A stretch of 64,000 bases of DNA from an uncultured Pelagibacteraceae bacterium (GTDB lineage Bacteria; Pseudomonadota; Alphaproteobacteria; Pelagibacterales; Pelagibacteraceae). The position numbers were made by a program, and so were the translations under genes. Below are positions 2,341-49,200 of the stretch, piece after piece. Numbering within the stretch: the stretch's first letter is position 1; every line of letters begins with the position of its first letter. A model generated the notes under the pieces. The model ran no database searches, had not been told where the DNA came from, and was given only the letters and a program-made list of their open reading frames with translations. The stretch spans positions 1 through 64,000 of the forward strand of contig CACENB010000002.1 in NCBI GenBank assembly GCA_902561015.1, given 5' to 3'.

Positions 2341-4092
2341 TTATGAGGTTGTTAAAACCCGCTCATATTCCCTAAAATTAAGCTCACCATTAGCAATTAG
2401 TCGCCTTCCCATATCTTGCATGGTTTGAAAGCCCTCTTTAATTGCAATTTCTCTTAACTCGGGTGTTGTTGCTTTTCTTAATATTGCCTCTTTAACTGGT
2501 TTTGAAACAACCAAAATTTCGTATAGACCTTGTCTACCTTTATAACCAGTGTCTTTACACTTAGGGCAACCTTTTCCTTTAAGAGCTTTAACTCTTGAAG
2601 CTAACTCTGGCGTAAAGCCTAAATCTTGTAAAACTTTTGGATTAACATCATCGTCTGGAACTCTACATTCTTTACATGTTCTTCTAGCTAATCTTTGTGC
2701 TAAAACCATTTGGCAAGCCGCACTAATTAAATAATCAGGAGTGCCCATGTTTTGTAATCTAGTTATTGTGCTTGGAGCATCATTCGTGTGCAACGTACTA
2801 AACACTAAGTGACCAGTTAATGCAGCCTTCAATCCGATATCAACTGTTTCTTTATCTCTCATCTCCCCAACAAGTATTATTTCTGGGTCTTGTCTTAAAA
2901 AAGATCTTAAAGCTGCAGCAAAACTTAAACCAATGTCATCTTTTATTTGAACTTGTCCAACACCATCTAATTCATATTCAACTGGATCTTCAGCTGTTAA
3001 AATATTTAAATGAGGTTTGCTTACTTCTTTTAGAATACTATAAAGTGTCGTTGATTTACCAGATCCTGTTGGTCCTGTCACGAGTATTAAACCTTGAGTG
3101 CTGTGTATAGCTTTTCTTAAATTTTTTAAATCAACATCCTCAAAATTTAATTGTTCTAAAGTTATATCTCCAGCGTCTTTATTTAAAACCCGCATTACTA
3201 TTCTTTCATTATTAGCAGTTGGCAAAATTGATAAACGCAGATCAACAACTTTACCGTCTATCTTAAAATTAATTGCTCCATCTTGAGGCAATCTTCTTTC
3301 AGCGATATCTAATTTACCCATAATTTTAAATCTTGTTACAACAGCCCCATAATTATCATGAAGAAATTTTTTATACTGTTCTTGTTCTTGAAGCATTCCA
3401 TCTAAACGATACCTTACGCGTGAAGAAAATCTGTATGGTTCTATGTGAATATCACTGACACCTGATTTAATAGCTTCTGCTACGACTGCTGTACTAAATT
3501 TTATAACCTCTGACTCGTTCTCAATTGCTTCTATATCTTCCTCTGGAGCTTTCTCTAAAACTTCACCCGCCTCACCTAAGTCAGACTCAAAAGTTTTAGT
3601 TTTTTCTCTATTCTCTTGTCTAATTGTTGCAGTTGTAACATCTCCACTTTCTGACTGAAGTTTCTCTATAAATTCTGAAATTTGAGACACTTTTGCAGCA
3701 TGTAGCTCTATATTTTTTTTGGTTATTGCCTTTAAATTTCTCATAAGACCTAGCTTTGAACTATCTGATATTGCAATATGGAGAGTTTTGCCTTCAACTT
3801 TAAATGGAGCCACAAAATTTACGTTAATATAGTTTGAGGGAAGGACACTTTTAATCTCATCGCTTATTTGAATTTTAGAAAGATCTACAACTTCAAGACT
3901 TTGCTCTTTTACTAAAACATCTAAAATCTTATTTTCGTCAGTTAACTTTAATTCAAAGACTGCATCTATTTGAGACTTATTTCCTTCAGTACTAACTTTT
4001 TTGATGTTAATTAAATCTTTTCCAGAAATAATATCGTTATCAATTAATACATTGATTAAGTTAATTTCACTTTCTCTACTAATTTTAAGCAT
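2341..4092 (-). CDS. pilB: Type IV pilus assembly ATPase PilB
   Basis: Walker A GPTGSGKSTTLYSIL, Asp box LTAEDPVEY, RQDPEIILVGEMRD, zinc cysteines CKECR...CPKC. Confidence 0.95.
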   Translation of the reverse strand: MLKISRESEINLINVLIDNDIISGKDLINIKKVSTEGNKSQIDAVFELKLTDENKILDVLVKEQSLEVVDLSKIQISDEIKSVLPSNYINVNFVAPFKVEGKTLHIAISDSSKLGLMRNLKAITKKNIELHAAKVSQISEFIEKLQSESGDVTTATIRQENREKTKTFESDLGEAGEVLEKAPEEDIEAIENESEVIKFSTAVVAEAIKSGVSDIHIEPYRFSSRVRYRLDGMLQEQEQYKKFLHDNYGAVVTRFKIMGKLDIAERRLPQDGAINFKIDGKVVDLRLSILPTANNERIVMRVLNKDAGDITLEQLNFEDVDLKNLRKAIHSTQGLILVTGPTGSGKSTTLYSILKEVSKPHLNILTAEDPVEYELDGVGQVQIKDDIGLSFAAALRSFLRQDPEIILVGEMRDKETVDIGLKAALTGHLVFSTLHTNDAPSTITRLQNMGTPDYLISAACQMVLAQRLARRTCKECRVPDDDVNPKVLQDLGFTPELASRVKALKGKGCPKCKDTGYKGRQGLYEILVVSKPVKEAILRKATTPELREIAIKEGFQTMQDMGRRLIANGELNFREYERVLTTS

Positions 4093-5646
4093 CTACAAAA
4101 TCCTTGGTGCAATAAATACCAAAAGTTCATCCATGTTATCAGTCTTTGCTTTGCCTTTAAATAAATTTCCAACAATTGGTACATCTCCAGCACCAGGTGT
4201 TTGTTGCTTACTATCGGTTAGAGCATTTTTTTTGATACCCCCAATAACTACAATATCACCATCTGCTATAAGTAATTTTGTGCTAATTTCCATTTTGTTA
4301 ATTGCTGGGTCTCCCGGGTTAGATCTATTAGGTGTATCGTTATTAACCTGTATGTCTAAGAGTACATTACCATCACCAATTATACTTGGAGTTACTGTCA
4401 TTTTTAAAGCTGCTTCTTTAAAGGAAGTATCTGAACCTTCCGCTGAACTTGAGGCATAAGGAATTTCCTCACCTTGAGTAATTGTTGCAACTTGATTATC
4501 TAAAGTAAATATTTTCGGATTTGAGATGGTTTTTCCCATTCCTTGTGACTCTAGCGCAGTAATTTCCATTTTCAAAACTGCAGATCCCGTTGCTTTTAAT
4601 ATTCCAATACCACTTGTTTTACCCGCTGCTGGGAAGTTTGTAATAGAGTCAGTCGTTGCACCTAATGTAGAGGTTGCTGAAGTAATAGCCGCATTTCCAG
4701 AAGATCCAGCTGCTACACCTCCAATTACTCTACCTTTGTCATTAGCATCCATTCTTCTATGGTATCCACCTAAAGCAGTACCTAAAGCTCTTTCAAAGTC
4801 TGAGTTGGCCTCAACAATAAAAGCTTCAATTAAAACTTGTCTAGTTCTAACATCAATCTCCTTTATAATTTTATCAACTACATCTAAATCTTTCTCTTTT
4901 CCTCTAGCAATAATTGATCTTGTAGTTTTTTCTTCAGTGATTTGAACTAAAGAAATTCCACCATCAACTGCTTTGAACAACTCATCTAAAGTAGCCTTAG
5001 CTTCAGCAGGGCTTATGTAATAAAGTCTAAATATTTCTGAAATTAGTGGCTCAACAGAATCCTCTAATTCAACTTTTTTTCTAACAGCTGAAGCTCTAGC
5101 CGATTTTGTCGACTCTTGTTGAGTAAGATTGGAAGGAGAGTGAACTCTTATTAGATTACTTTGAACATCAAAATCAGCTGCATAATTTTTTAGATCTAAA
5201 AGTGCATTAAAAGCTTTGTCCCATGGAATATCAATCAATTGTGCTGTAACTGAGCCAGCGACTTCATCACCAATGAGAATATTTATCTCACCAGCTTTTG
5301 CCATCAATTCTATGGCAGTTCTATAATCTAAATTTTGAAATTTAAATGAAACGTTTTGCTTTAATAACTTATATTCTTCACCGATTAATAAATAGTTCCT
5401 TGCTTTTTGAGAAGAGATCTGTTTTCTTTTGCCAAGTTTAATTACATCTCCCTCTGCTGGTTGAGGTCCCATTTTAACAGTTTTTTCAACTTCTATTTTA
5501 CCTTTGCTTTTAATATCTTCTTTAATAAGAGGCGTGTTATGCTTGAATTTTTTTGTTCCAAGTTTGCCGTCAGTAGCACAACCACTTAAAAATAAAATTG
5601 AGGTAAAACTAAATAAAATAAAAAATTTAAAATTTTTAAAATTCAT
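4093..5646 (-). CDS. pilQ: Type IV pilus secretin (PilQ/MshL-like)
   Basis: Lipoprotein signal (FLSGC), secretin domain with VLIEAFIVEAN and VVIGGIKKNALTDSKQQTPGAGDVPIVGNLFK. Confidence 0.9.
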   Translation of the reverse strand: MNFKNFKFFILFSFTSILFLSGCATDGKLGTKKFKHNTPLIKEDIKSKGKIEVEKTVKMGPQPAEGDVIKLGKRKQISSQKARNYLLIGEEYKLLKQNVSFKFQNLDYRTAIELMAKAGEINILIGDEVAGSVTAQLIDIPWDKAFNALLDLKNYAADFDVQSNLIRVHSPSNLTQQESTKSARASAVRKKVELEDSVEPLISEIFRLYYISPAEAKATLDELFKAVDGGISLVQITEEKTTRSIIARGKEKDLDVVDKIIKEIDVRTRQVLIEAFIVEANSDFERALGTALGGYHRRMDANDKGRVIGGVAAGSSGNAAITSATSTLGATTDSITNFPAAGKTSGIGILKATGSAVLKMEITALESQGMGKTISNPKIFTLDNQVATITQGEEIPYASSSAEGSDTSFKEAALKMTVTPSIIGDGNVLLDIQVNNDTPNRSNPGDPAINKMEISTKLLIADGDIVVIGGIKKNALTDSKQQTPGAGDVPIVGNLFKGKAKTDNMDELLVFIAPRIL

Positions 5647-6142
5647 TTGCCTCTTTTATTTGGTTTTTAAAATTCATAATTATGTATTGGTTATCATCAG
5701 CTTTTTCAAAAACTGCTCTTTTTATACTAACATCAACAAGTTTGACACCACTTAAGACTTCTTCAAATAATTCCACCGTCATAAATTCACCATTGTCATC
5801 AACTAAAGTAATGAAACTGTTATCTTTAGCAGAGAATGATCCAACTAGTTTATAAGATCTTAATTTGACAGCACTTGATGTTGGTGTTGTTGCTGTGACC
5901 ACTTCACTTACTGTAGATGCATCCCCAGCGAAAGGATCATTTAATGGTAACGGCTCCTCTTCTATAACAACTTGTCCTGTCTCATTTTTTATGTTGTCTT
6001 GTTGTGCTGATTGCTTAGCTTTTACTTGCTGGTTTATCTCTTTTGCTTTGTCCACAATGTTTTGATCATGACTGTCTGACATTACTTTCTGTGGAAAAGT
6101 AAAAATTATTAAAACTAGCGTTATCAGTCTAAAAAAATTCAT
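5636..6142 (-). CDS. PilP-like pilus assembly protein
   Basis: Signal peptide; LPLNDPF and SYKLVGSFSAKDNSFITLVDDNGE resemble the PilP/GspC beta domain; sits between pilO and pilQ. Confidence 0.65.
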   Translation of the reverse strand: MNFFRLITLVLIIFTFPQKVMSDSHDQNIVDKAKEINQQVKAKQSAQQDNIKNETGQVVIEEEPLPLNDPFAGDASTVSEVVTATTPTSSAVKLRSYKLVGSFSAKDNSFITLVDDNGEFMTVELFEEVLSGVKLVDVSIKRAVFEKADDNQYIIMNFKNQIKEANEF

Positions 6143-6827
6143 CTGGTAAACCCACTATTGTTAATACACCAGTTACGGCTACCGTACTGGTTGTATTTCC
6201 TTTTATCACTTTAATCGTTTCTTTGTCAAAATTTAACATTTTTTGAGACATGGCTACTTGTCTCTTAAACTTAATATATCCAAGAAAATTGCCCTTTATT
6301 TGGAATTTTACGGGTATTTTATAGTATGCAATATTTTTTTTAACACTGGTATCAACTTTCTTCTTTTTTCTCTTTTTCTTCTTTTTCTTCTTTTGAGTGG
6401 ATGCAATAGCTGATGCCTTCGTTATTGCCTTTGGTTTACCCTTTTCAATTTTTGAAATAACCAAATTGTTGATGCCTGCAAACTCACTAAGAGTTTCGTA
6501 AAGACCTTCTACTTCGGCTTTACTGTGAAATAATGTAGAATATTGCTCATATCTTGGAGTAAGTTTTTTAATTTTAGCTTTACTAGACTTTATCTCCTTA
6601 TTCATTTTTAAAATTTCAGCTTGTTTTTTTTGCATGTTATCAAGCTGAGCTTTTTTCTTATCTACAATCGGACTTAATACAGCATAATAAATTATTAAAA
6701 ATATTACTATCGATGCAAAACCAATTCCAAATTTAATTAAAATCTTTTTATCTATAGATTGAATTTTAGCTTTAATACTTTCTAAAGTTATATTTTTCAG
6801 ATCTAAATTTATATTTTTTAAGTCCAT
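6129..6827 (-). CDS. pilO: PilO-like pilus assembly protein
   Basis: Short cytoplasmic N-terminus, one TM, coiled coil, ferredoxin-like C-terminus (YYKIPVKFQIKGNFLGYIKFKRQVA); position after PilN. Confidence 0.75.
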   Translation of the reverse strand: MDLKNINLDLKNITLESIKAKIQSIDKKILIKFGIGFASIVIFLIIYYAVLSPIVDKKKAQLDNMQKKQAEILKMNKEIKSSKAKIKKLTPRYEQYSTLFHSKAEVEGLYETLSEFAGINNLVISKIEKGKPKAITKASAIASTQKKKKKKKRKKKKVDTSVKKNIAYYKIPVKFQIKGNFLGYIKFKRQVAMSQKMLNFDKETIKVIKGNTTSTVAVTGVLTIVGLPDEFF

Positions 6828-6830
6828 TAA

Positions 6831-9272
6831 TTAACCTTTAACATCCACTAAAACTGTAAAATTCTTTTTTATATCTGCAGAATCCCCTGCTTTACCCTTA
6901 AAATTCATTTTTCCTAATGAGGCTTGAACAACAAGCTCCTGTGCTCCAAGATTGTTTATTAATTTCAAAATATCTTGATCGGTGGCTGCTTGACCTTTTA
7001 TGACCACTTTATTTTTACCATTATATTCCACTGATGCAAATTTGATCCTTTTGGGAACACTCATAGCAACCTGTGCTAATACCCTGTAACTATTCTTTTT
7101 ATTAGATTTTAAACTTGTGCTTAATTTTAATGTGTTTGTAATTAAGCCTAACTCTTTTTTAATTTTCTTTCGTTCTAATGTTTTGGCTTTATGAGTTTTT
7201 AGAACTTTATCATAATTGACTAATTTTTTATTGTAAGATTGAATATTCCAAAACGACAAACCAAAAAGAATTAAGTATATTCCAGCTATTGAGGCAGCGA
7301 TACCTTTGAAAGCAAAACTTGAAAAAGCTTTCATTTTTTTCTCTTTTATCATTCCCTTTCTATTAGGTAATAAGTTTATATTTTTGACAGCAGTTACAAA
7401 TTTATAGTAACCAAAAACATCTAATTTTCTAAACGCTAAACCAATAACTGACGATAAATACGATCTGTTAATTAAATCTACTTTTTCTTTGTTTTGTTGA
7501 GGAATTAATAATCCATCAACTGGATCAAATAAATTAAAACCAACATTTAATAGACCCTTTCTAAAACTTGATAAGAAATCTTCGACATTCTTTAAATCTG
7601 ATACGACTTTTATGTTTCTTATTCTTTTCTCATATTTGGTCTCAAAATCTTGAACAGCTTGTTTTACTTGAGTTAAAAATCTTCTTACGAGTGCCTCTTT
7701 TTCCTCAACATCTTGTGACTCTAATAATATTTTTCTATCTTGGCCCCTTAAAAAAATGTCAGTAATTATTGGGTTATTATCATACAAAATCATCAAATAG
7801 TTTTCATCCAATCCAAATTCTAAAACAGCAGTAAGATTAACATCATCAACTTTGTTTGAAATTTGATTTATTTGGTCGACAGCAGATTTTAATGCAAAGC
7901 ACTTTACGTCAATAATTACAGGATTAAGATTACTTTGTTTAATTATTGAAGTATAATTGTTTATGTCAGCTAATTTTGAAGCAACAAACAAAATATCCAT
8001 TGTGTTAGCTTTTTCGTTTCTATTAATAACTTGATGGAAAATTGAATAATCGTCTAAATTATCAGTTAACTGAACTAAATTTTCCCAAAGTGAATTAGTT
8101 TCAATTGCTTTTTGCAATTCCTCTTCTTTCATCAACGGTGCTGTTACAACTCTTATAATCGCACTTGTGACCGGTATAGCAATTGCAGCGTTTAAAGTAG
8201 TGATTTTAGATTTTTGTAATGCAATTGTAAGTTCAGCTCCTAATTTTTCTCCATTATCTAAAACATTCGCATCATCTGGTAAATCAACTGGATGTGCATA
8301 AAATTTATCTAATACCCATTGATTTGATTTATTAGTTGATACTTGAGCTAATCTTATTTCTTTGTTTGTAATTTCAACTCCAACAATTTCCTCCCCTTTA
8401 ACTGCTGACTTTCCAATTTTAGATTTAAAAAAACTAGTAACTTTTTTCGAAAGTTCATTAGTTTTGAGTGATGGTTTTGAAACCGAACTTTTTTCTAAGA
8501 AGCTTGGCTTTTTAAATTTAATATTTTTTATATTATCTAAAAAAGCAAATTTTGATTTTTTATTTTCTTGTTCGTCCTCTGTTGATTGATTTAAAATAGG
8601 AGCGTCAATTTTAGGTTCGGTTAACGTAGTTGTTTGACTCGTTTGTTCTTTATTAATAATTTGAGTTGAAGTTTCCGGTTGAACAGATGTTTCTTCAGTT
8701 TTAACAGGTTGCTCCTGAATTTCTTTTTCTTTTTCTTTTCCTGCAACAACGTCGTCAAACCATTTTTCTAAAATTGGTATTGCTTCCTCCAAATTAGGAG
8801 TTCCTGATGATGAAATTTTTTGTTTTCCATCATGATAAAGTCTTCCAACCCAATTTTTTGATTTTAATTCACCTTTGTATTTGTCTTGTCGGATATAAAT
8901 ATGTAACCTCCCGTCTTTCTTGTGGATTACCTCATGTGAGGATCCATTATCCTCATCTTTTTTTTCATTTGAAGTCTCGGATGTTTGTTCTTGGGTGGTT
9001 TCTTGATCGTTGTTTTGACTTGATTCTAAACTTCTTTCATCATTTTGATTATCTAAAATTTCATTTTCCTCTTTTTTTTCACTAGTTGTATCTAAATTTT
9101 GTGTTTGATCATTATTTTCGTTATTATTTTGATTTGAGCCAGGGATAGGATCATTTTTTTGATTATCTACACCTTCAGGTTGATTATTTTCATCAACTTT
9201 AGATTGATTCTCACTTTCTGACTGAGACCTCTCCTCTTCAATAATTTTTTTTTCGTCGTCTTGATCGTTCAT
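6831..9272 (-). CDS. PilM-PilN fusion protein with acidic low-complexity N-terminus
   Basis: Actin-like PilM region (VVGVEITNKEIRLAQV ... AVLEFGLDENYLMILYDNNPIITDIFLRG), then PilN signature INLLPNRKG, TM and PilN periplasmic part in one ORF. ORF track starts at TTG 9278; ATG at 9272 is more likely. Confidence 0.85.
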   Translation of the reverse strand: MNDQDDEKKIIEEERSQSESENQSKVDENNQPEGVDNQKNDPIPGSNQNNNENNDQTQNLDTTSEKKEENEILDNQNDERSLESSQNNDQETTQEQTSETSNEKKDEDNGSSHEVIHKKDGRLHIYIRQDKYKGELKSKNWVGRLYHDGKQKISSSGTPNLEEAIPILEKWFDDVVAGKEKEKEIQEQPVKTEETSVQPETSTQIINKEQTSQTTTLTEPKIDAPILNQSTEDEQENKKSKFAFLDNIKNIKFKKPSFLEKSSVSKPSLKTNELSKKVTSFFKSKIGKSAVKGEEIVGVEITNKEIRLAQVSTNKSNQWVLDKFYAHPVDLPDDANVLDNGEKLGAELTIALQKSKITTLNAAIAIPVTSAIIRVVTAPLMKEEELQKAIETNSLWENLVQLTDNLDDYSIFHQVINRNEKANTMDILFVASKLADINNYTSIIKQSNLNPVIIDVKCFALKSAVDQINQISNKVDDVNLTAVLEFGLDENYLMILYDNNPIITDIFLRGQDRKILLESQDVEEKEALVRRFLTQVKQAVQDFETKYEKRIRNIKVVSDLKNVEDFLSSFRKGLLNVGFNLFDPVDGLLIPQQNKEKVDLINRSYLSSVIGLAFRKLDVFGYYKFVTAVKNINLLPNRKGMIKEKKMKAFSSFAFKGIAASIAGIYLILFGLSFWNIQSYNKKLVNYDKVLKTHKAKTLERKKIKKELGLITNTLKLSTSLKSNKKNSYRVLAQVAMSVPKRIKFASVEYNGKNKVVIKGQAATDQDILKLINNLGAQELVVQASLGKMNFKGKAGDSADIKKNFTVLVDVKG

Positions 9273-9292
9273 ACACAATTTAAAATTTTTTC

Positions 9293-9626
9293 TCTAACAC
9301 AATTTAACGAATCTCTAACACAAAATAATACTTTAGTCTAACACAAAATTATAAAATATATGTCCAAAATGAGTTAAATAGTAAAAAAGACAATAAATTA
9401 GCCATTTTTTACAAATTAAAATATTTTATAAATATTATATTTTTAATCTAGATTTTAATAAACTCTAACACAAATCATAAATATTAAATTGTGTTAGAGT
9501 ATTTCTATTTTGTGTTAGAATATTTAATTTTAATTTTATATAAAAAAAGTCAATAAAATCAACAAAAATCAAAATTGTGCTAAATTTAAACTTTTTTGTG
9601 TTAGAGTTTTAACTTTATGTGTTAGA
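9293..9626. repeat. Cluster of eight TCTAACACAA / TTGTGTTAGA elements
   Basis: TCTAACACAA at 9293-9302, 9314-9323, 9337-9346, 9464-9473; TTGTGTTAGA at 9489-9498, 9510-9519, 9596-9605 and ATGTGTTAGA at 9617-9626. Confidence 0.92.
9361..9377. promoter_or_regulatory. Putative T4P regulatory motif, copy B (TGTCCAAAATGAGTTAA)
   Basis: Shared with 311-327 and 22184-22200; 89 nt upstream of the pilMN ATG. Confidence 0.45.
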
Positions 9627-10137: not shown

Positions 10138-11508
10138 TTATACTCCGTCTACAACAACAATAGTCAAATCATCTTTTTGAATACGGCCAGACTTAATTAT
10201 ATCCTCAACAATTTTATTTAATCTTTCGTGATTAGGAGTTTGATGATACTTTGTAATATAATTTTTGAAACCATCGGACTCTAACATGTTACCTTCAGGA
10301 TCTTTCATTTCTGTTATACCATCAGTGAATACATACATCGAACTCTCAGAAAATTTTATTTTTGTTTCTTTGTATTTAATCTTCGACATAATTCCTAAAG
10401 GTGGACCCGCTTCAGTATAGTTTGTAAATTTTCCATCTTTAGAATGAATTAGTGGTGGTTCATGTCCTGCGTTAGCAAGTAGTAATTCTTTTTTATTACT
10501 GTCATAAATACCGATAAGCATTGTTACAAACATTCCACGTGCAGCTGTTTCACAAATTTCAGAATTAAGTAAGTTTAATAAATCGGCAGCAGAAAAAATT
10601 GTTTTACTTAAACATCTATAAAGACTCGAAGCCTTTGACATTAAAAGAGAAGATTTAATTCCTTTACCGGATACATCTGCAACACCAAAACCAAATTTAC
10701 CATCACCTAGATCAGAAAAATTATAAAAATCTCCTGATACGACTTTTGCTGGGATATTTATTCCTGCTATAGGAAAGTTTTCTTTTTTATTTTGAGACAA
10801 CAAAGTTTTTTGTATCTCACCAACAATTTCAATTTCTTTTTGCATTCTATTCTTATCAACTAAATCTTTTGCCATCTTAGCATTGTTAATTGCTAATGCA
10901 GCTGGACCAGACAAAGTTTCTAAAAGTTTTCTATCATTCTCTTCAAAAAGTTTATTATTAGTTTTTTTGTTTAGGCAATGAATAACTCCAATACATTCAT
11001 CTGATACAATTAAAGGGGAGCATAGAACTGAATAAGTTGTAAAATTTGTTTTGTTATCTAAATCAAAATAAAATTCTGCAATTTCTCTAATATCTTTTCT
11101 AACATCACCAACTCTAATACATTTTTTCATGACTGCAGCTTTTCCCATAACTCCTTGGGTAATTGGTATTTCAAAATCCTCAAGATATGCTTGATGTTTT
11201 GAAGCAATACATTGGAACGATTGATTTTTTTTATCTATTAAAAAAATATTTGCCGCTTGTGCATTAATTCTTTTTATAATTAATTCTAATGAATTATTTA
11301 GTGTTTCTTTTAAATCAAGAGACATTGCAAACTCTTGATTCATTTTTGTTACTAGCTCTAAATCTTTACTGCTAGTGTCATCTATTTTGATCGTTTCCTT
11401 TTTTTTTACACCAAAAAACATGTCATTTATAAATTGATATTCGTTATTTTTTTGATAGTTTTGAAATTGATGGAAATCATTATTCATACGCCAAATTTCT
11501 ATCTGCAC
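10138..11508 (-). CDS. GAF-domain SpoIIE/RsbU-type PP2C serine phosphatase
   Basis: GAF domain (ANIFLIDKKNQSFQCIAS...) plus PP2C motifs VSGDFYNFSDLGDGKFGFGVADVSGKG, LLLANAGHEPPLI, YVFTDGITEMKD. Confidence 0.9.
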   Translation of the reverse strand: MQIEIWRMNNDFHQFQNYQKNNEYQFINDMFFGVKKKETIKIDDTSSKDLELVTKMNQEFAMSLDLKETLNNSLELIIKRINAQAANIFLIDKKNQSFQCIASKHQAYLEDFEIPITQGVMGKAAVMKKCIRVGDVRKDIREIAEFYFDLDNKTNFTTYSVLCSPLIVSDECIGVIHCLNKKTNNKLFEENDRKLLETLSGPAALAINNAKMAKDLVDKNRMQKEIEIVGEIQKTLLSQNKKENFPIAGINIPAKVVSGDFYNFSDLGDGKFGFGVADVSGKGIKSSLLMSKASSLYRCLSKTIFSAADLLNLLNSEICETAARGMFVTMLIGIYDSNKKELLLANAGHEPPLIHSKDGKFTNYTEAGPPLGIMSKIKYKETKIKFSESSMYVFTDGITEMKDPEGNMLESDGFKNYITKYHQTPNHERLNKIVEDIIKSGRIQKDDLTIVVVDGV

Positions 11509-23199: not shown

Positions 23200-24136
23200 A
23201 GTTTTTTATTTTGCTCTTTATATATCTTGATATTCTATATGTTTCATTAAGTTTATCATATCTCCAATTATCTACTTTGTCATTTAGATCTCTAATAATA
23301 TTAAGTTCTTTAAAAATTTCAAAAAATTTTTTAAATCTATCGTTATTTTTGACATGTGGCATGTGTGCTACATAAATCGGTTTACCAGTAATTGCCGCTT
23401 CAGAAATCATAGATGTAGAGTCACAAGTAACAACTATATGATCTGAAAGTCTCAAGGATGATAGGTATGCTTTTTTATCAATATCTGTAATGACGATCTG
23501 GTTTTCATCAAAATAATTTTTCGCTTTTTCAATTATCTTTTTAGGAGTTCGCATTGAGGGAATTAATATCAACTGATATCCATTATTTAAAAAGTTTTGT
23601 TTAATCTTATAAAAAATGTTCTCTATTTCTGTTTCCTTATAATCATAATATTTATTAGGTCCTCCAACTATTAGAGTAACTATTTTTTCTTTATTGATTC
23701 TAGGTTTCAAATAAGAAATATTTTCATCTAATTCTTTCTCTGTTAAATAATGAATAGCTCCTTTGCTAGAAATAACATTTTCTCCTATCAAACCATCATG
23801 TTCAGGAGCAACCACAAAATCAAACTTAGATAACGAAACCTTTGGATCTTGAATATGAATATTAATAATTTTATCCTTAAGTTTTTTTTTTAAAAAAAGT
23901 GATGGAATTACACTTTTTCTGCCACAAGAAATAACAATATTTAAATCATTATCAATTTTGTTTTTAAATACAAAACTATGTATTGGAGTTATTTTTGGTG
24001 GAATAAGTTTCCAAAAATTATTAAGTTCAATTTTTTCGTGTATAAAATCAATATCTAAAGCCTTCGCTAGTCCTTCAACCTGGCTAATCATGCCGTGCAT
24101 ACCTTCGGTCAATAATAAACCTTTTAATTTAGTCAT
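23186..24136 (-). CDS. ELM1/DUF1022-like family protein
   Basis: LTEGMHGMISQVEGLAKALD, GRKSVIPSLFLK, IVGGPNKYYDY, VTCDSTSMISEAAITGKPIYV. Confidence 0.7.
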   Translation of the reverse strand: MTKLKGLLLTEGMHGMISQVEGLAKALDIDFIHEKIELNNFWKLIPPKITPIHSFVFKNKIDNDLNIVISCGRKSVIPSLFLKKKLKDKIINIHIQDPKVSLSKFDFVVAPEHDGLIGENVISSKGAIHYLTEKELDENISYLKPRINKEKIVTLIVGGPNKYYDYKETEIENIFYKIKQNFLNNGYQLILIPSMRTPKKIIEKAKNYFDENQIVITDIDKKAYLSSLRLSDHIVVTCDSTSMISEAAITGKPIYVAHMPHVKNNDRFKKFFEIFKELNIIRDLNDKVDNWRYDKLNETYRISRYIKSKIKNYDIS

Positions 24137-47929: not shown

Positions 47930-49200
47930 TTATTAATTATGTTTTCAATCTGTTGCTCTGATATTTGAAAATTATTTTCGATCCATTTACTCTCAATAAG
48001 TTTTAGTTTTTCTCCTAACATTTTTCCCTCTGGAATATCGTATTTTGACATTAAAAAATCTGCTTTAAACGGCATTGTAGGTAAAGATTTTATTTCAAAT
48101 TTGCTAATTAATGCCAATATATTGTTATCTAATTTGTTAGTTTTTAATATCCTATAATTTAGAATATCCAAGACTGTCTCTTTGCCTGAATGATAAAAGA
48201 TCAAATTTAAATTTTTTTCAGTAAAAGTTTTTGAAGTTATTTTTTTTTTATAAAAATCACTTAAATTTCTAATTCTTTTTTGGTCCTTTTTAGATAGATT
48301 AAATTTATAAATGAAATACTCCACATTATCAGTTTCATCGATAATTAATAATGAAATGATAAAAATAAAATCAACTTTAGAGAGCATATCCTTTAGATTA
48401 GTATTTAGCTTAGAAAAAATATTAAATTGTTTTAGTTGAGGAAAAACTGAGACTAAAATTTCTAAAATTATTTTATCTTTTGATAAACTTTCTAACACAT
48501 TTGGTTTGAGAATCTTTCTTAGTTCATCTATCAGTCTTTCTTTAGAAAGATTTGCGATGCCCATAAGATTCATTTTTAAAACTTTAACAATTTTAGGATC
48601 ATGTGGTTGTTTAGAATAATTTAAAAAAAATCGTAAATATCTTAATATTCTCAAGTAATCCTCTTTAATTCTTTTTTCTGGGTTACCAATAAAATTAATT
48701 TTACCCTTTTTAATATCCTCATAACCGTTGTATGGATCAAATAAGTTGCCCTCTTTATCTGAATAAATAGAATTGATGGTGAAATCTCTTCGCGAAGCGT
48801 CGGTTTTCCAATCTTTAGAAAATTTGACTTTTGCATGACGGCCATCAGTTAAAATATCTTCTCTTAAACTCGTAATTTCAAATTTACTATCCCCTATTAT
48901 TGCTGTTATTGTGCCATGATCTATTCCACTCTCATAGAATTCAACGTTGCTTTTTTTGAGTGCAGAACAAACCTCAGTTGGATCTATATTTGTTGCTAAA
49001 TCGATATCATCAAAATTTTCATTATTTATAACTTTTCTTATGCAACCACCAACATATCTAAGTTCACTTGTAGATGAATAAGAATTGATAATATTAAATA
49101 TTTGAGACACAGGGGTTTTTTTGGATATGTTCCTTATTTTCTTGCTTACGAGGTCTAGATTATTTCGTCTGAAAAAAAATTTGTCTATTAAACTTTTCAT
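47926..49200 (-). CDS. cca: CCA tRNA nucleotidyltransferase / poly(A) polymerase family
   Basis: ELRYVGGCIRKVINNENFDDIDLATNI, RRDFTINSIYSDKEG, NFIGNPEKRIKEDYLRILRYLRFF. Confidence 0.92.
   Translation of the reverse strand: MKSLIDKFFFRRNNLDLVSKKIRNISKKTPVSQIFNIINSYSSTSELRYVGGCIRKVINNENFDDIDLATNIDPTEVCSALKKSNVEFYESGIDHGTITAIIGDSKFEITSLREDILTDGRHAKVKFSKDWKTDASRRDFTINSIYSDKEGNLFDPYNGYEDIKKGKINFIGNPEKRIKEDYLRILRYLRFFLNYSKQPHDPKIVKVLKMNLMGIANLSKERLIDELRKILKPNVLESLSKDKIILEILVSVFPQLKQFNIFSKLNTNLKDMLSKVDFIFIISLLIIDETDNVEYFIYKFNLSKKDQKRIRNLSDFYKKKITSKTFTEKNLNLIFYHSGKETVLDILNYRILKTNKLDNNILALISKFEIKSLPTMPFKADFLMSKYDIPEGKMLGEKLKLIESKWIENNFQISEQQIENIINN

Follow-up and report, generated by a model that had tools for sequence, protein, structure and literature searches.

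An array of short phased sites at the pilMN promoter of Pelagibacteraceae co-occurs with an integrase-type predicted DNA-binding domain in PilM

The window analysed here, a stretch of 64,000 nucleotides from an uncultured Pelagibacteraceae bacterium, carries on its minus strand a pilMN gene (nt 6831–9278) coding in one polypeptide for an N-terminal extension, a PilM part, a transmembrane helix and a PilN part. Its conserved start is probably the ATG at nt 9272–9270. The PilM part was recognised by PilM_2 with 61.7 bits (cut-off 27); the PilN match was marginal (22.0 bits, cut-off 22.8) and the score with TIGR01175 (74.6) fell below its cut-off of 133. The neighbouring genes, encoding a secretin, a T2SSE/MshEN ATPase, a T2SSF protein and a prepilin peptidase, place the product among the PilM/PilN proteins of type IV pili. 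The type IVa proteins share this make-up of an actin-like PilM part, one membrane helix and a PilN part, and also the operon context of secretin, T2SSE ATPase and T2SSF; in type II secretion, GspL is another protein in which PilM-like and PilN-like parts are joined (PMC3724824). Unlike both, the window protein has an extra predicted DNA-binding domain on a long variable linker. From other species it is known that PilM and PilN bind each other, and membrane anchoring is established there too (PMC3724824). Because the one strong hydrophobic stretch (about residues 654–677) lies between the PilM and PilN parts, the N-terminal domain is expected to be cytoplasmic, and the tether from this domain to the PilM body measures about 110 residues. 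The pilus operon is also flanked by a GAF-SpoIIE phosphatase (nt 10138–11508) and by an RsbW-like kinase ORF (nt 674–1087, judged from sequence only), a pair resembling partner-switching regulation. Around nt 24000 a minimum of the cumulative GC skew and a switch in gene direction were observed, and the minimum may reflect gene orientation alone.

Upstream of pilMN, the first-pass annotation had described eight copies of a 10-mer between nt 9293 and 9626, and all of its coordinates and orientations proved correct. Exact copies of TCTAACACAA are read on the plus strand at nt 9293–9302 (in the proximal cluster, nearest to the pilMN start), 9314–9323, 9337–9346 and 9464–9473, and on the minus strand at nt 9489–9498, 9510–9519 and 9596–9605. 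The eighth site, on the minus strand at nt 9617–9626, is TCTAACACAT, one mismatch away from TCTAACACAA and the commonest variant among relatives (23/456 sites). The reported within-group spacings of 21, 23, 21 and 21 bp were found again, as was the further TCTAACACAT at nt 48491 inside the cca ORF. A degenerate ninth site with two mismatches was detected at nt 9575–9584, 21 bp from the site at nt 9596; phased sites of this kind are rare overall (5/69). The whole assembly of the window (834 kb, 37 contigs) contains eight exact copies of TCTAACACAA, against a composition-based expectation of about 3.6 per genome and 0.0015 per 334 bp. With seven of these eight in the array, the word is not spread evenly or at random over the genome. 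The remaining copy falls within a coding frame on contig 35. A regulon was discarded as an explanation, the word being clustered nowhere else and its sole other exact genome copy being coding. The same holds for plasmid-type iterons or a replication origin, since no rep or dnaA was found among the neighbours examined (pil genes, GAF-SpoIIE phosphatase) and the word stands at pilMN in every genome.

The array is, by comparison of sequences, conserved and not the product of chance. In 12 of 101 relatives the word was found no more than 250 bp from its reverse complement, always directly upstream of pilMN, and the reversed control never matched. Sites of the TCTAACACAA type were present in all 66 distinct loci that encode a domain-bearing PilM and have enough readable upstream DNA, with a total of 456 sites, 399 of them (87%) exact, and full arrays typically made of 7–9 sites. 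Taking in a preferred flanking C (73% of sites), the pilus consensus reads CTCTAACACAA. In the upstream DNA of these loci the 10-mer alone is nearly invariant, its flanks being unalignable across divergent genera. Each genome has one array. It is found at the pilMN promoter, also in loci with a different upstream gene (L101, L104, L154). Close relatives with the same pil operon thus keep the array, and they keep its phase: the proposed placement of the sites about two helical turns apart holds across relatives, where distances between neighbours of the same orientation peak at 20–23 bp and all inter-site distances fit a period of 10.7 bp (R 0.84; 0.77 for those above 40 bp), although the distances are partly inherited and not independent. 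The layout is less constant. Counted from the start codon, loci of the window type have three proximal sites at about −30, −51 and −74; further out come a middle group, at about −200 to −247, and a distal pair. In other clades the order and direction of sites are rearranged and the words kept. The change of orientation noted in the window, with its symmetry of four sites each way, is real there but neither conserved nor essential, given that in L100 and in L159, L163 and L166 all sites point one way. A second conserved element, approximately TGTTGATTTTATTGRCTTTTTT, was observed in the same upstream DNA. It lies at nt 9543–9565 and 9383–9405 of the window (minus-strand sense). In most domain-bearing loci one or two copies, facing either way, stand between the site clusters, and 41 of 55 loci contain TAAAATCAA. 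The element might be the site of an accessory protein or a promoter.

The extra N-terminus of PilM consists of a variable, acidic, low-complexity linker and one near-invariant island of about 65 residues (consensus HxVIHKKDGRLHIYxRQDKYKGELKSKNWVGRLYxDGKQKISSSGTxNLxxAIPILEKWFDD). In the window the island corresponds to nt 8748–8936 on the minus strand, residues 115–177 of the TTG-started ORF (HEVIHKKDGRLHIY...KWFDDV). It is the only conserved part of the extension, and an invariant island amid diverging linkers is what strong and specific constraint on the island would be expected to leave. Pfam gave no significant match for the PilM domain, nor any known DNA-binding family for it, and sequence searches of the PDB with the domain retrieved no match. 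A structural model built from 19 diverse homologues (pLDDT 85) has strands at residues 3–6, 11–20, 23–35 and 38–43 and a helix at 49–71, a predicted beta-beta-beta-beta-alpha fold in which strands are followed by one helix, as in the arm-binding (AB) domains of tyrosine recombinases. Among the 50 PDB matches listed by Foldseek, only 3rmp and 3jtz reached a TM score above 0.5 by query and of at least 0.5 by target; their values of 0.50–0.53 are the highest both ways among the matches listed, with non-significant E values of 1.6 and 2.1. These entries are the arm-type binding domains of the P4-like and HPI integrases. Three strands and a helix make up the AB domains of the Tn916 group (PMC8138268), and the PilM domain model differs from them by a short fourth strand that precedes the three.

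When the domain profile was run on 398 genomes of the order (Pelagibacterales/SAR11), it retrieved 69 PilM proteins and two ORFs of about 425 residues. An independent search of the same genomes for two words 19–25 bp apart found a tandem TCTAACACAA pair in 66 of them, about one in six, and all 66 encode a domain-bearing PilM-PilN; the tandem positions compared, among those listed, are no more than about 1 kb from the domain. Neither trait is present in 329 genomes. Three have the domain and no strict tandem. One of these (G224) does possess an array, built of TGTAACACAA variants, and the other two (G274, G366) reach a contig end with too little upstream sequence. Alignment of pilMN starts from 29 genomes gave the same picture: the array accompanies all 16 PilM proteins of about 750–840 residues (fragments included), and upstream of the 13 of 567–593 residues not even a one-mismatch word was found within up to about 1.4 kb. 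No repeated words of any kind were found upstream of domain-less PilM loci. On a tree of the PilM core, with the domain excluded, three changes are needed, in which both traits always move together, and well-supported branches force two of them. The tree was a quick one with some long branches and several genomes are incomplete assemblies; few independent events are claimed, and to judge from the tree the co-occurrence is mostly shared descent with only about three independent changes. One locus (L153, genome G353) carries domain and array on a PilM core of the domain-less type, inside a domain-less clade, suggesting that promoter and N-terminus recombined as one unit.

The two ORFs of about 425 residues are tyrosine recombinases (Pfam Phage_integrase, E ~1e-7) with the domain at their N-terminus (L144, L145). 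The PilM domain is 50–59% identical to these N-termini, with E values of 1.8e-26 and 7.4e-26. A third Pelagibacteraceae integrase was found by a name search (L146). In a sample of 395 alphaproteobacterial genomes outside the order a single further match appeared, again at the N-terminus of an integrase (L143, E 5.6e-4). Domain-profile matches to histidine-kinase-like and CoA-transferase-like ORFs (G315, G400, G340, G188, G049) were weak and considered spurious. An N-terminal arm-binding domain distinguishes the integrases of mobile elements, and some AB domains escape Pfam (PMC8138268); no significant Pfam match was obtained for the N-termini of the present integrases either. The distribution of the domain over PilM proteins and integrase N-termini thus suggests that an integrase was its original home and the PilM fusion derived. 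In the window protein the domain is followed by PilM and PilN, without core-binding or catalytic recombinase parts, and the protein is not an integrase.

The repeats at the integrase loci, counted without reference to the pilus word, are close to the array. At two of the three loci (L144, L145) the most repeated words are of the CTCTTACACAA type, which differs from the pilus CTCTAACACAA by one base (10/11 identical); three hits lie near each integrase, as compared with about 0.1 expected, and none of 500 shuffles did as well. In L144 one copy of the tandem pair ACTCTTACACTACTCTTACACAAA stands beside the integrase and a second at a distance of 4.9 kb, the two being identical over 24 bp only, amid unrelated flanks. 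Corresponding tandem pairs in different letters occur in L145, and the repeats of the third integrase are weak. In one pilus array (L100), TCTTACACAA is followed 11 bp on by TCTAACACAA, which is the arrangement seen at the integrase locus. An integrase adjoins tRNA-Leu. An integrative element was observed at tRNA-Leu(CAA) in L144 (nt 3935–8872); besides the tyrosine integrase it has a serine resolvase and a tRNA-Leu gene of its own. The genome that harbours it (G134), of the same genus as that of the window, has both the integrase with CTCTTACACAA repeats and a PilM array (C2:342318–343139), and cross-regulation between element and pilus is possible there.

The pilMN promoter predicted on the minus strand at nt 9348–9377 is made of TTAACT (nt 9377–9372) and TATAAT (nt 9353–9348) separated by 18 bp. 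Promoter calls are not significant at every locus, and the match in the window alone is no better than in shuffled sequence; it falls, however, at a position conserved in relatives. The third site of the array (nt 9337–9346) begins 1 bp past the predicted −10, and the predicted transcription start lies within it; five of the eight sites would be upstream of the transcript. Most loci of the window type have a TTGACC-N18-TATAAT-like sequence ending 1–2 bp before a word, and in the clade L094–L099 one word fills the 17-bp spacer of TTGACA-N17-TATTGT (or TATTAT). A protein bound at the predicted promoter site would block initiation, and a site in the spacer or directly after the −10 points to autorepression of the pilus operon.

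Our favoured reading, to which we assign a probability of roughly 0.7, is that PilM has captured an integrase arm-binding domain, binds the array with it and represses its own operon through this operator. The first-pass annotation had proposed a multi-site operator or nucleoprotein region for the pilus genes, and this proposal is supported: all domain-bearing relatives have the array at their pilMN promoter and the domain-less ones lack it. Its regulator of pilus assembly also stands, but not as an unknown one: the regulator is most likely PilM itself, acting via the integrase-type N-terminal domain. The PilM-PilN fusion would expose this domain on a disordered linker while its PilN helix anchors the protein in the inner membrane, and the domain would recognise CTCTAACACAA as an arm-type site. 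Some eight sites in phase along one face of the helix might allow several membrane-bound copies of PilM, possibly an assembled platform, to bind together; the site covering the promoter would then block RNA polymerase, so that completed or surplus PilM would repress its own operon. What we infer here is that PilM binds the array, that its effect is negative and that the state of assembly is sensed; the effect might instead be activation. Simultaneous binding by several copies of one assembled platform is speculation. Tentatively, and with a good deal less confidence than for the operator itself, the phased sites may be gripped by several PilM subunits of one membrane platform, in which case the finished machine and not free protein would shut the operon and hold the locus at the pilus base.

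The same domain could bind the array mainly to tether the locus to the membrane platform of the pilus, for positioning, segregation or co-localised synthesis, with secondary effects on transcription. PilMN is predicted to be membrane-anchored, for a simple repressor some eight phased sites in 330 bp would be a large number, there is a single array per genome and a phage-borne version of the domain also precedes a predicted membrane helix. We nevertheless regard tethering as unlikely, since a pure tether could be anywhere and the array invariably occupies the pilMN promoter, one site covering its core, even next to a different upstream gene. We give still less credence to binding by a separate protein, such as a free integrase or an unidentified regulator, with another role for the PilM domain: the genome with both a matching integrase and a PilM array would allow cross-binding, but no such integrase was seen in most of the sampled array genomes (two in 398 genomes), and the array vanishes whenever the PilM domain does.

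Readings in which no protein reads the sites fare worse. A functionless remnant of the attachment site of a mobile element once inserted beside pilMN would account for the resemblance to the integrase-locus repeats. Purifying conservation makes it very improbable, as divergent genera keep one word at 87% identity over 456 sites amid unalignable flanks; moreover the spacing is phased and neither a recombinase nor a tRNA adjoins the array. Least credible of all is a structure of the nucleic acid itself, either hairpins in a leader RNA or a DNA cruciform of the inverted words. Folding of the window strand does beat shuffles (z −5.6) through pairing of these words, yet the differing orientation and layout of the clades speak against a hairpin or cruciform function, and the one-directional arrays of L100, L159, L163 and L166 keep words and spacing. 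In addition, five of the eight sites would lie outside the transcript from the predicted promoter, Rfam gave no match, and the near-invariant words show no covariation of paired bases.

PilM as its own regulator would resemble several known systems in part. With the AB domain and arm-type sites of tyrosine recombinases (lambda Int, Tn916 Int, P4 and HPI integrases) it shares a homologous N-terminal domain of about 65 residues, with beta strands and one C-terminal helix, and short repeated sites of about 10 bp, including 11-bp tandem pairs at a Pelagibacteraceae integrase and in the array L100. The differences are that the domain is here fused to PilM-PilN, that the sites are usually 21 bp apart and that no recombination function is involved. 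In KplE1, IntS uses arm-type sites to repress its own promoter (PMC2951348), and here too candidate sites for a protein with an arm-binding domain overlap its own promoter; unlike in KplE1, the regulated protein is a membrane-anchored component of the pilus platform, with about eight sites and no attachment core. Membrane-tethered one-component regulators such as ToxR and CadC carry a cytoplasmic N-terminal DNA-binding domain on a membrane protein. PilMN is predicted to have the same architecture, but without a winged helix, and its remainder is a structural part of a secretion or pilus machine.

A component of the type IV pilus base would thus apparently be its own transcription factor, by means of a DNA-binding domain from a mobile element and matching sites. 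If true, this would be a direct physical link from a membrane machine to a promoter, of which no description was found in the literature searched, nor was any relevant report found there that links PilM to a DNA-binding domain or to integrase arms. Pelagibacterales are among the most abundant bacteria of the ocean (PMC12636525). Little is known of their pili and of regulation in their streamlined genomes. The prediction is a simple one: one small domain, one 10-bp word, one target.

No matching integrases were found in isolated phages. The TCTTACATAA present in viral contigs was set aside, since it falls in the codons of the domain itself. Five viral contigs (L137, L138, L139, L140, L141) encode short proteins, in frames of 119–158 residues, that have the same domain without a recombinase part; in L137, L138 and L141 the domain is followed by a hydrophobic C-terminal stretch. 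Such viral proteins could compete for the pilus array.
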